A stretch of DNA of 64,000 nucleotides, from assembly GCA_021399445.1 (NCBI GenBank), contig JAJTUQ010000001.1:7936001-8000000 (forward strand), given 5' to 3'. The stretch's first letter is position 1; the number at the start of each line of letters is the position of its first letter. Shown piece after piece: positions 6,676 to 44,033 of this stretch. A model generated the notes under the pieces. It saw only the letters and a list, made by a program, of their open reading frames with translations. It was not told the DNA's origin and made no database searches. The translations under genes and the position numbers were made by a program. Source of the DNA: Xylogone sp. PMI_703. Its lineage: Eukaryota > Ascomycota > Leotiomycetes.

Positions 6676-7879
6676 TTCTGATCCACTTGGCTAGACATGT
6701 GCCTAGCCAGGCACCAAGCCATGTTAATGAATCAAAGAGAGAGTACATTATCGATTTATATATAGAATGCAATACCAGTCTAAATCAAAACTGTTGGTAG
6801 TATAGTGTCTAGTTGAAATGAAAAGTGATGTCTGTTAGATTCTGGACCGGATGACGTACATGTAGTTTATATCATGTCAGTGCGAAATTTGAAATGCTAT
6901 TCACATTAGATTCCTTAGTCTAACTGTTAATTTTTTTTTTTCATCAAGTCAATTATTGACGGCTACTACACAAACTTGCTTCACCTTATATGATGCGATT
7001 ATCTATAATTCAGTCGGGAAAACTAATACTTGCACTCCAAGCCAGCATGAAATTCTTCATGTGACTACACTATTCTACAAAGTAAATATACTGGTTTCTG
7101 CGCATAGTCAAGTACCTTCAAAGCAAAGTTTCGAGAGTATTAATATACAAATTACCAAAGCCCATGTTAAGTTTAACCTAGTCAAAGTTTAACAGAGAAG
7201 AGTTGAGAACAAACATCATAAAATATCCCTTAACATTAAGCCAATCAAAAACCCCTCTTGAACATCTCAATTCTAATACCATCAGTAATATTATCACTAA
7301 AGCTAGGAATGAGATAAATGCTCCGAGAAAGCATAAGGCAAACTGTGACAAGCATAAAGTCCGTAATATATGTTTGTTCTGTAGGATTACAACTGCCAAT
7401 TGAGCGTAGATGCAGATAATTGTAACAAATTCACCACTCTCCTGTAACACGAAGCCTCAGATATCATAGTAATTCTAATATGAACTTCGGCTGCTGCCCG
7501 CAGCTTTCATGTTTTTGCAATTCATACGGCCAATAGAGTTACGACTGCAACTTCGGGAGCTACACCAATGATCCAAGCCCTTCTCGATACGATCCGAGAC
7601 ACAATAACAGAAGAATTCCTACAACACTCGTATATATTTTTCGAATTGGAGGGGTAAATATGGATATCCGTCTAGCTCAAGAAAGGGAATGTAGGGGAGA
7701 CCCCGATGTCCGCGCTGTCACAGCTATACCGTACTCATTCCAGACCCATACAGTATATGCTGCCATTGAAATATCATACTGCCATTCCCTCAATCCGAGT
7801 CTAGTGAGTTTGATTGAAACTCCATGGCAATATCTTAGCGGACTATCTAGTCTTACAATATCGCTCGCAAACACAGCCT
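6676..7879. other. AT-rich intergenic DNA
   Basis: No gene is supported. The stretch is AT-rich and has an 11-nt T run near 6932. It separates the F-box gene from the first tRNA-Leu. It may be old degraded repeat DNA, but no repeat family is recognised. Confidence 0.6.
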
Positions 7880-8028
7880 GGACAGATGGCCGAGTTGGTT
7901 ATGGCGCCAGGTTAAGGTGATCCTTAACACAATTTCCTGGTCACGAAAGTGGTGAGTTCTCTTGGTATAGTTATAAATAACCAATCATTAACAACGCCTA
8001 GGCGTGGGTTCGAGTCCCACTCTGTTCA
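7880..8028 (+). tRNA. tRNA-Leu(AAG), copy 1, with two intervening sequences
   Basis: The acceptor arms GGACAGA (7880-7886) and TCTGTTC (8021-8027) pair, with one G:T. Discriminator A is at 8028. Box A is TGGCCGAGTTGG and box B is GGTTCGAGTCC. The anticodon stem is CCAGG/CCTGG and the anticodon AAG lies at 7914-7916. A 17-nt canonical intron follows position 37 (7918-7934) and contains CCTTAAC, complementary to the anticodon loop. A second insert, 7952-8001 (50 nt), lies in the variable arm between GTG and GC. It starts GTGAGTTC and ends CCTAG. With both removed, the variable arm is CAC-GAAA-GTG and the product is 82 nt, normal for a type II tRNA-Leu. Read as a plain tRNA, the variable region would be abnormally long. 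Confidence 0.9.
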
Positions 8029-8037
8029 AATCTTCGA

Positions 8038-8044
8038 TTTTTTT
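8038..8044 (+). terminator. Pol III terminator of tRNA-Leu copy 1
   Basis: A run of seven T starts 10 nt after the tRNA end. A perfect hairpin, CACACTT/AAGTGTG, follows directly at 8047-8063. Confidence 0.75.
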
Positions 8045-8813: not shown

Positions 8814-8821
8814 AAAAAAAA
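8814..8821 (-). terminator. Pol III terminator of tRNA-Leu copy 2
   Basis: A run of eight A on the plus strand, so T8 on the minus strand, begins 14 nt past the 3' end of tRNA-Leu copy 2. Confidence 0.7.
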
Positions 8822-8834
8822 CATGGGAGTATAG

Positions 8835-8985
8835 TGAACAGAGTGGGACTCGAACCCACGCCTATGATATTTGTTAATGACTGCTTTTATCGACACCAAT
8901 TCAGTGAACTTACCACTTTCGTGACCAGGAAATTGTGTTAAGGATCACCTTAACCTGGCGCCATAACCAACTCGGCCATCTGTCC
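8835..8985 (-). tRNA. tRNA-Leu(AAG), copy 2, with two intervening sequences
   Basis: Inverted copy facing copy 1. The first 72 nt (8985 down to 8914), including the 17-nt anticodon-loop intron (8931-8947), are identical to copy 1. So are the last 27 nt (8861 down to 8835). The variable-arm insert is different: 8862-8913 (52 nt) begins GTAAGTTC and ends CATAG. It shares only the two ends and a TCATTAACAA block near its 3' end with the copy 1 insert. Removing both inserts gives the same 82-nt tRNA as copy 1. Internal A and B boxes are intact, so the gene looks transcribable by Pol III. Confidence 0.9.
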
Positions 8986-9473: not shown

Positions 9474-10235
9474 ATGGATTCGACGGAGCCGGAGGCAACC
9501 CCTTTTGCGGCTGTGAGCGCCCAAACATCGAAGCTTCAGCGGGTACGCTACTTCTTCACTTATGAGCGCACACTCTTTCTGGGACTACGATACTAATAAT
9601 GATTATTTCAGCAATATCAATCTTACCTAGACAAGGCTACACCCCATGTTGGATACAGATGGATTGGGACAGCAACCCTGTTGGTCATCTTTTTCATAAG
9701 AATATTTGTCGCTCAAGGATGGTATATTGGTATGTTTGTTGTCTCAGTGATCTGAAAAGGTCTGGTCAGAGCTAATAAAATAATGCAGTGGCGTATTCCC
9801 TTGGTATCTACTTGCTGAACCTCTTCCTCGCATTTCTCCAACCCAAATTTGATCCTTCCAATGAGGCAATTGATAATGAGATGGAGGATGGTTCAGTGGG
9901 CACTTTACCTACAAAGCAGGATGAAGAATTTAGACCATTTATCAGAAGGTTGCCAGAATTCAAGTTTTGGCATTCCGCGACAAGGGCAATTGCCATTGCA
10001 TTTGTATGCACCTGGTTTACAATCTTCGACGTCCCAGTGTTCTGGCCGGTACTAGTGGTCTACTGGTTTATTCTCTTCATTTTAACAAGTATGTGCACCC
10101 AATTGACGTTTTTGGATGCTGAATGGGTACTGATATTCTATAACCTCAGTGCGGAGACAGATCCAACATATGATCAAGTATCGCTACGTGCCATTCACTT
10201 TTGGGAAGGCGAAGTACAACAAGAACAGCAACTGA
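9474..10235 (+). CDS. RER1: Rer1-family Golgi retrieval receptor
   Basis: Four exons: 9474-9542, 9612-9729, 9789-10088, 10150-10235; 190 aa, the usual length for the family. Rer1 is a four-span membrane protein of the early Golgi that returns ER membrane proteins in COPI vesicles by recognising their transmembrane segments. Visible signatures are the start of the first span at [37 protein letters not shown], the [14 protein letters not shown] stretch between spans 2 and 3, and span 3/4 residues after FWHSATRA. The last exon reads [19 protein letters not shown], the strongly conserved tail. The last intron splits the Met codon of that tail (A|TG). The next gene, PAF1, starts about 690 bp downstream on the same strand. 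Confidence 0.95.
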
Positions 10236-15209: not shown

Positions 15210-16118
<909 letters not shown>

Positions 16119-43637: not shown

Positions 43638-43718
43638 CGTCGCGAGCAGGATTCGAACCTACGCCACCAAAGTGATTGGATTTCAAATCCAACGCGTTAA
43701 CCACTCCGCCATCGCGAC
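43638..43718 (-). tRNA. tRNA-Ser(UGA)
   Basis: Intronless 81-nt type II tRNA on the minus strand. Acceptor GTCGCGA pairs perfectly with TCGCGAC, and the discriminator is G. The anticodon stem TTGGA/TCCAA encloses the loop TTTGAAA with anticodon TGA. Box A is TGGCGGAGTGG and box B is GGTTCGAATCC. The variable arm is long, as expected for Ser. It is divergent from tRNA-Ala, 206 bp away. Confidence 0.95.
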
Positions 43719-43924
43719 TTTCATGTAAAGTACTTAAAGGCAGCTTATATAATTATAATTTTTTCCCCCTTATAATGCATTTTTTCTTATAAAGCAATAT
43801 AAATATATAAAATTCTCCGGTGGTTGAATATGCTCATTAACACCAATTGGTCATCGGAGGGAGTGAGAACATCTAGTTAATAAGTCAAAATAACCGACTA
43901 CTCCTTCAACAAGCAATCCTCTAC

Positions 43925-44033
43925 GGGCGAATGGTCTAGTGGTATGATTTTCCCTTAGCAACAGGCGAAGAACCAAAAAGTTCCGCACAACAGACATTGG
44001 GAGAGGTCCGGGGTTCAATTCCCCGTTCGTCCA
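43925..44033 (+). tRNA. tRNA-Ala(AGC) with a 37-nt intron
   Basis: Acceptor GGGCGAA pairs with TTCGTCC and includes the G3:T70 pair, the identity element of alanine tRNAs. Discriminator A is at 44033. The anticodon stem is TTCCC/GGGAG and the anticodon AGC lies at 43957-43959. The intron at 43961-43997, after position 37, holds a small GAAC..GTTC hairpin. Box B is GGTTCAATTCC. The body resembles tRNA-Pro, but anticodon and G3:T70 both say Ala. Confidence 0.92.

Follow-up and report, generated by a model that had tools for sequence, protein, structure and literature searches.

Textbooks treat the introns of nuclear tRNAs as a class apart, which is removed by the tRNA endonuclease and is free of the spliceosome. 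A passage in PMC13149111 describes the anticodon-loop introns of nuclear tRNAs as spliceosome-independent, and an excerpt of PMC3978253 reports ectopic and multiple introns of the bulge-helix-bulge (BHB) type in tRNA genes of archaea and Cyanidioschyzon. Ascomycetes are on record as having spliceosomal introns in their nuclear rRNA genes (Cubero 2000; Bhattacharya 2000, as cited in a section of PMC11889510). The U6 snRNA of Schizosaccharomyces pombe is presented in part of PMC8917221 as a Pol III transcript with an mRNA-type intron that is removed by the spliceosome. S. pombe U6 is the nearest precedent for a Pol III transcript that is handled by the spliceosome.

The stretch of DNA analysed here (64,000 nucleotides, hereafter the window) comes from the leotiomycete Xylogone sp. 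PMI_703. It harbors a nuclear tRNA gene whose insert at 7952-8001 is very probably, judging by its sequence, a U2-type spliceosomal intron that would be removed from a Pol III transcript. Such an arrangement would have in common with S. pombe U6 the Pol III transcript and the spliceosome-type intron, the splicing in our case being deduced; however, U6 is itself an RNA of the spliceosome, whereas the hosts here are tRNAs of nine isoacceptors. The U6 of this fungus, unlike that of S. pombe, shows no intron: its best match (C20:2705914-2706024) covers the full model in 111 nt. With the ascomycete rRNA introns the inserts share the mRNA-type appearance and the residence in a stable non-Pol II RNA, but there the host is rRNA made by Pol I and here it is tRNA. 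Anticodon-loop introns, which are cut by tRNA endonuclease according to BHB structure at 37/38, co-occur with the GT-AG inserts in many of the same genes, while the inserts themselves lie elsewhere. The archaeal and Cyanidioschyzon introns likewise lie outside 37/38 and can be several per gene; however, they depend on the BHB, whereas the inserts described here carry GT, branch and AG signals and have BHB potential at chance level. Among the papers listed by a literature search that covered a minority of subscription papers and no preprints, none described a tRNA gene with a spliceosomal intron. Introns of this type are known, and U6 provides a precedent for Pol III; it is the tRNA host and the scale that appear to be new.

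The tRNA-Leu(AAG) genes

The first gene lies on the forward strand. Its exon 1 (7880-7917, tRNA positions 1-37) contains the A box TGGCCGAGTTGG (7887-7898, found by an A box scan) and is followed, after position 37, by an ordinary anticodon-loop intron of 17 nt (7918-7934), which ARAGORN also places when the GT-AG insert is excised. Exon 2 (7935-7951) provides the 3' strand of the anticodon stem and the variable arm CAC-GAAA-GTG. The 50-nt GT-AG insert in the variable arm (7952-8001) starts with GTGAGTTC (5' site GTGAGT), ends with CCTAG (3' site TAG) and includes a branch-like CATTAAC at 7986-7992, the A of which (7991) lies 10 nt before the end. Exon 3 (8002-8028) comprises the T arm, the 3' strand of the acceptor and A73, with the B box GGTTCGAGTCC at 8007-8017 (B-box pattern), and a T7 run of the Pol III terminator type is situated at 8038-8044. 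Removal of both introns leaves an 82-nt type II tRNA. The insert with its three signals, as well as the 82-nt product with the CAC-GAAA-GTG arm, had been put forward in the original prediction, and direct reading of the window bears both out. Because a G is repeated at the flanks, the cut can slide by 1 nt, and GT-AG is among the allowed placements. ARAGORN makes no call on the uncut gene, and when introns of up to 200 nt are permitted the uncut genes of the window are miscalled, this one as Tyr and its neighbour as Val; the first gene without the insert is called Leu(AAG) with a 17-nt intron.

The neighbour, which the original prediction overlooked, is a second tRNA-Leu(AAG) gene 0.8 kb away on the opposite strand (8985-8835, minus strand). 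The Rfam tRNA model matches it at 41.1 bits, and the alignment places the variable arm, together with the additional bases, between model positions 44 and 45. The gene consists of exon 1 (8948-8985), a 17-nt anticodon-loop intron (8931-8947), exon 2 with the variable arm CAC-GAAA-GTG (8914-8930), a 52-nt GT-AG insert at the same site as in the first gene (8862-8913; GTAAGT...CATTAAC...ATAG) and exon 3 with the B box (8835-8861); a Pol III-type T8 run occupies 8814-8821. All of these features were read from the sequence; the Rfam model supports exon 1, the insert and exon 3, the genome search supports exon 1, and ARAGORN supports the anticodon-loop intron.

The search of the 50.1-Mb genome returned 2 matches to the 5' half of Leu(AAG) (up to 3 mismatches) and 21 matches to its T arm. 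Two further Leu(AAG) genes, L045 and L047, reside on other contigs, so that four were found in the genome. The variable-arm GT-AG insert is present in all four; L045 and L047 harbor an additional D-loop insert of the GT-AG type (GTTAGT...TACTAAC...CAG and GTTAGT...TATTAAC...AAG, respectively) and therefore have three introns apiece, the anticodon intron counted. The exons (82 nt) are identical across the four genes. The variable-arm inserts are 46-60% identical, versus 29-39% for shuffled sequences, and the 80-nt upstream flanks are 17-38% identical. The original prediction would have been weakened by an unrelated insert of non-GT-AG type at the same site; none was found among the paralogues of this genome, and every Leu(AAG) copy found has the insert at the same site, with the splice signals conserved and the remainder diverged. 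The four copies also rule out an isolated pseudogene as the reading of the first gene's insert.

The two genes of the window are identical in their exons and anticodon intron and 60% identical in their GT-AG inserts. Gene conversion outside the inserts, or a very uneven constraint, might explain this contrast. The window further contains an H/ACA snoRNA match of the snR44-like type (15807-15943, minus strand; 38.2 bits, above the gathering score) and, at 43638-44033, a tRNA-Ser(UGA) gene on the minus strand near a tRNA-Ala(AGC) gene on the plus strand, with a 37-nt anticodon intron.

Recurrence and splice grammar of the inserts

Our survey of the genome used B-box patterns combined with a T-run (among the matches listed), the Rfam tRNA model (53 matches, with 63 of 1824 candidates scored) and the fetched loci. 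It revealed at least 23 inserts of the GT-AG type, distributed over at least 20 tRNA genes. These genes represent nine isoacceptors, and the inserts occupy, as judged by reading, about 12 sites other than 37/38; the totals are lower bounds, since of a set of 20 candidate regions five were covered in shortened form and fifteen lie outside the survey. The interrupted genes are those of Leu(AAG) (four), Leu(UAA) (two), Leu(CAA) (three), Ile (one), Pro(AGG) (three), Pro(UGG) (one), Phe (two), Met (one) and Arg(ACG) (three). The A-box/B-box sites L037, L084, L103 and L105, which resemble fragments or pseudogenes, were excluded from the counts. Near-identical B-box-like sites, GGTTCAAGTCCGGGGTACATGGCA, occur at C3:39302, C7:285714 and C16:28590 and perhaps belong to a repeat element.

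The inserts were assigned by reading to the variable arm, the D-loop and positions 26/27, 30/31, 31/32 and 32/33. Every copy found of Leu(AAG), Leu(UAA), Leu(CAA) and Pro(AGG) carries one; in Leu(CAA) the insert at 30/31 splits the anticodon stem. Many of the interrupted genes have an ordinary anticodon-loop intron beside the GT-AG insert, and the Pro(AGG) gene L110 (C20:4000570-4000920, minus strand) has three introns, which fall into two types: its D-loop and its anticodon loop (32/33) each contain a GT-AG insert, and the anticodon intron is present as well. Among the 61 distinct ARAGORN calls in the fetched DNA and the window, 4 are misread interrupted genes, and the remaining 57 are intronless or have one intron placed at 34-39.

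The signals of the inserts are those of U2-type introns, for which a GTRNGT-like 5' splice site, a YTNAY branch site and a 3' AG are typical. GT at the 5' end and G at +5 are found in 23/23, T at +6 in 18/23, and AG at the 3' end in 21/23, including all six Leu(AAG) inserts, the borders having been picked by eye with GT-AG in mind; in the D-loop, the length of which is variable, the borders consequently have some freedom. GTAAGT is the commonest 5' hexamer (7/23), and the 3' ends are CAG (11), TAG (8), AAG (2), CTG (1) and CCG (1). A YTAAY motif 9-15 nt before the 3' end is present in 23 of the 23 inserts, which are not independent and represent about 12 sites, whereas shuffled sequences have it in 2.3 on average and in 9 at most (2000 trials). 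Chance is therefore ruled out as the source of this motif at the right distance. The inserts are 49-64 nt long, and in length and grammar they agree with the mRNA introns of the organism. A search for mRNA-type introns of 45-80 nt in the same genome gave 22 candidates, which contain two overlapping pairs (20 are non-overlapping), versus 3 in the reversed sequence. One such intron is confirmed by the NCBI annotation of an M41 protease and has the same grammar (GTACGT...TTTTGCTAAC...TAG, 53 nt); a 91%-identical M41 relative has Scytalidium lignicola as its named source.

The two inserts without a 3' AG belong to neighbouring Arg(ACG) genes, L087 and L089 (about C1:6.081-6.084 Mb, minus strand), and end in CTG and CCG, respectively, while that of the third Arg(ACG) copy, L106, ends in CAG. 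Both keep GTAAGT and TATTAAC and are 75-77% identical to the L106 intron. The pairing of the anticodon stem is kept as well, the L106 stem differing by a compensated C-G/U-A pair, and one of the two neighbours has additionally lost D-loop sequence. We read L087 and L089 as probable decaying copies.

Several other intron classes were considered. Group I and group II introns fold into a conserved ribozyme core that measures hundreds of nucleotides; this class is ruled out by the 49-64 nt size and by folding that is below that of shuffles (mean z +0.71), and no group I or II family is among the 3 Rfam matches in the window at gathering score. Introner-like elements, which would show as similar sequences in introns of unrelated genes, were rejected as well: in a comparison that covered the 23 inserts and the 22 candidates of mRNA type, the scores of insert cores from different isoacceptors average 9.8, versus 9.5 in shuffles (224 pairs). 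The nuclear BHB class is defined by the 37/38 position, at which the inserts do not lie.

One would argue that the inserts are nevertheless cut by the tRNA endonuclease, or by another protein endonuclease followed by a ligase, and that their GT-AG look is coincidental. Introns at odd tRNA positions, including the archaeal variable arm, are in fact described (an excerpt of PMC3978253). However, all 4 central BHB pairs can form at the borders of 3/23 inserts versus 2.8 in shuffles, and the strict form in 0/23 versus 0.7, which is chance level and excludes the BHB class as far as a crude score allows, nine known anticodon introns themselves reaching only 3-4 of 4. Such cutting would also leave the conserved GTNNG, YTAAY and AG without a reason. 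We consider this explanation very unlikely, and the spliceosome would be the better candidate for the removal of the inserts.

Transcription signals and integrity of the host genes

The interrupted genes have the internal A and B boxes and the T-run terminator of Pol III tRNA genes. All 20 genes keep an intact B box, and in 16/20 the A-box consensus occupies its normal position (it is unmatched there in L051, L042, L110 and L062). The A box survives because most D-loop inserts open with bases that continue it (TGGCCGAGTTG before the border, GTTAGT after it). A run of five or more T is found within 40 nt downstream of 19/20 genes, and the twentieth has a T7 that was seen in a separate B-box/T-run search. 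A TATA-like word at -70 to -15 is present in 12/20 genes, versus 6.0 expected from shuffles. One of the 23 inserts contains TTTT. Of the mRNA-type candidates, 6/20 contain it when overlaps are dropped (Fisher P 0.038) and 7/22 when overlapping candidates are kept (Fisher P 0.022), and 6.0 inserts with TTTT are expected from shuffles (P 0.006), these P values being optimistic as related copies are among the inserts. The scarcity of TTTT is in keeping with selection that disfavours premature termination by Pol III. A scan for bacterial-type promoters and terminators led nowhere.

These data bear on the notion that the spliceosome does act, but on precursors made by Pol II. The spliceosome usually works in conjunction with transcription by Pol II, which speaks for such precursors. 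Against them stand the B boxes, the A boxes, the T-run terminators and the scarcity of TTTT; besides, the gene pair of the window sits between open reading frames (at least 150 aa, stop to stop) of which one ends at 6690 and the other starts at 9779. Pol II involvement is thus disfavoured and seems extremely improbable. The sequence tests support the original prediction that a tRNA gene transcribed by Pol III contains a GT-AG intron of the spliceosomal type, from which the splicing itself would follow.

When introns of up to 40 nt are permitted, 3/20 of the uncut genes are called by ARAGORN, all with the wrong isotype, and at up to 200 nt several uncut genes are called, mostly with the wrong isotype. 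With the inserts excised, 19/20 are called and 15 match the assigned isoacceptor. Both Leu(UAA) genes, the Leu(CAA) gene L036 and the Met gene are given another anticodon after excision, and the Leu(CAA) gene L042 obtains no call; these five genes were assigned by reading and by their similarity to related genes. Outside Leu(AAG), the exons and anticodon intron are 70-100% identical within families and the inserts 40-91%, the insert being lower in each pair.

It could be that the genes with inserts are defunct or in decay and that insert-free genes elsewhere supply the cell. In line with this are the two Arg(ACG) copies without a 3' AG, one of which is also missing D-loop sequence, the existence of Phe and Met genes that lack a GT-AG insert, and the fifteen candidate regions beyond the survey. 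However, the copies found of Leu(AAG), Leu(UAA), Leu(CAA) and Pro(AGG) are interrupted without exception, the Leu(AAG) exons are identical though their inserts have diverged, and the terminators are retained. An intact Leu(AAG) gene supplying the cell was named in the original prediction as a finding that would speak against it; it was sought in this genome and no insert-free gene was found. The joined variable arm-T arm of Leu(AAG), the joined D arm-anticodon of Leu(UAA/CAA) and that of Pro(AGG) each gave 0 matches in the genome at up to 3 mismatches, using patterns without a positive control that covered these four isoacceptors. The codons in question are in common use as well: in 11 open reading frames of the window, CTY makes up 41% of the Leu codons, and TTA and TTG together account for 165/527. 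Since joined genes were not found, dead copies are an improbable explanation, and functional genes that are spliced remain the preferred one.

Proposed order of processing and probable dependence on the spliceosome

In the mechanism that we propose, Pol III would transcribe the genes from the internal A and B boxes to the T-run. In the uncapped precursor, GUNNGU, the YUAAY branch site and AG would be recognised by the spliceosome, which would take out the insert of 49-64 nt and so restore the cloverleaf, and the tRNA endonuclease and ligase would take out the separate anticodon-loop intron. In Leu(CAA) (30/31) and in the Pro(AGG) gene L110 (32/33) the spliceosome would have to act first, because the tRNA endonuclease needs a folded arm, which is split there by the GT-AG intron.

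The dependence of the cell on this pathway would differ between isoacceptors. The Phe gene L104 and the Met gene L016 have an anticodon-loop intron only, thus Phe and Met do not need the splicing of GT-AG inserts. An unmodified Leu(UAG) tRNA of S. cerevisiae can read all CUN codons, therefore Leu(AAG) is perhaps not strictly essential, and the argument may be stronger for Leu(UAA) and Leu(CAA). Taken with these reservations, it is likely from the gene set found that the spliceosome is an essential tRNA-maturation enzyme in this fungus: Leu(AAG), Leu(UAA), Leu(CAA) and Pro(AGG) would exist only as genes with GT-AG introns, and the reading of common Leu and Pro codons would depend on the ordered action of the spliceosome and the tRNA endonuclease on the same Pol III transcripts, some of them with three introns of two chemistries.

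The Rfam tRNA model detects 2/15 interrupted genes in uncut form, which points to a blind spot of annotation, and thus similar cases may go unseen in other genomes. If the proposed splicing is true, spliceosomal introns in the D-loop, the anticodon arm and the variable arm break the rule for nuclear tRNA introns, and short uncapped Pol III RNAs could be routine substrates of the spliceosome. The fungus would then offer a natural system for studying how introns enter non-coding genes, and its translation capacity would be tied to the spliceosome.
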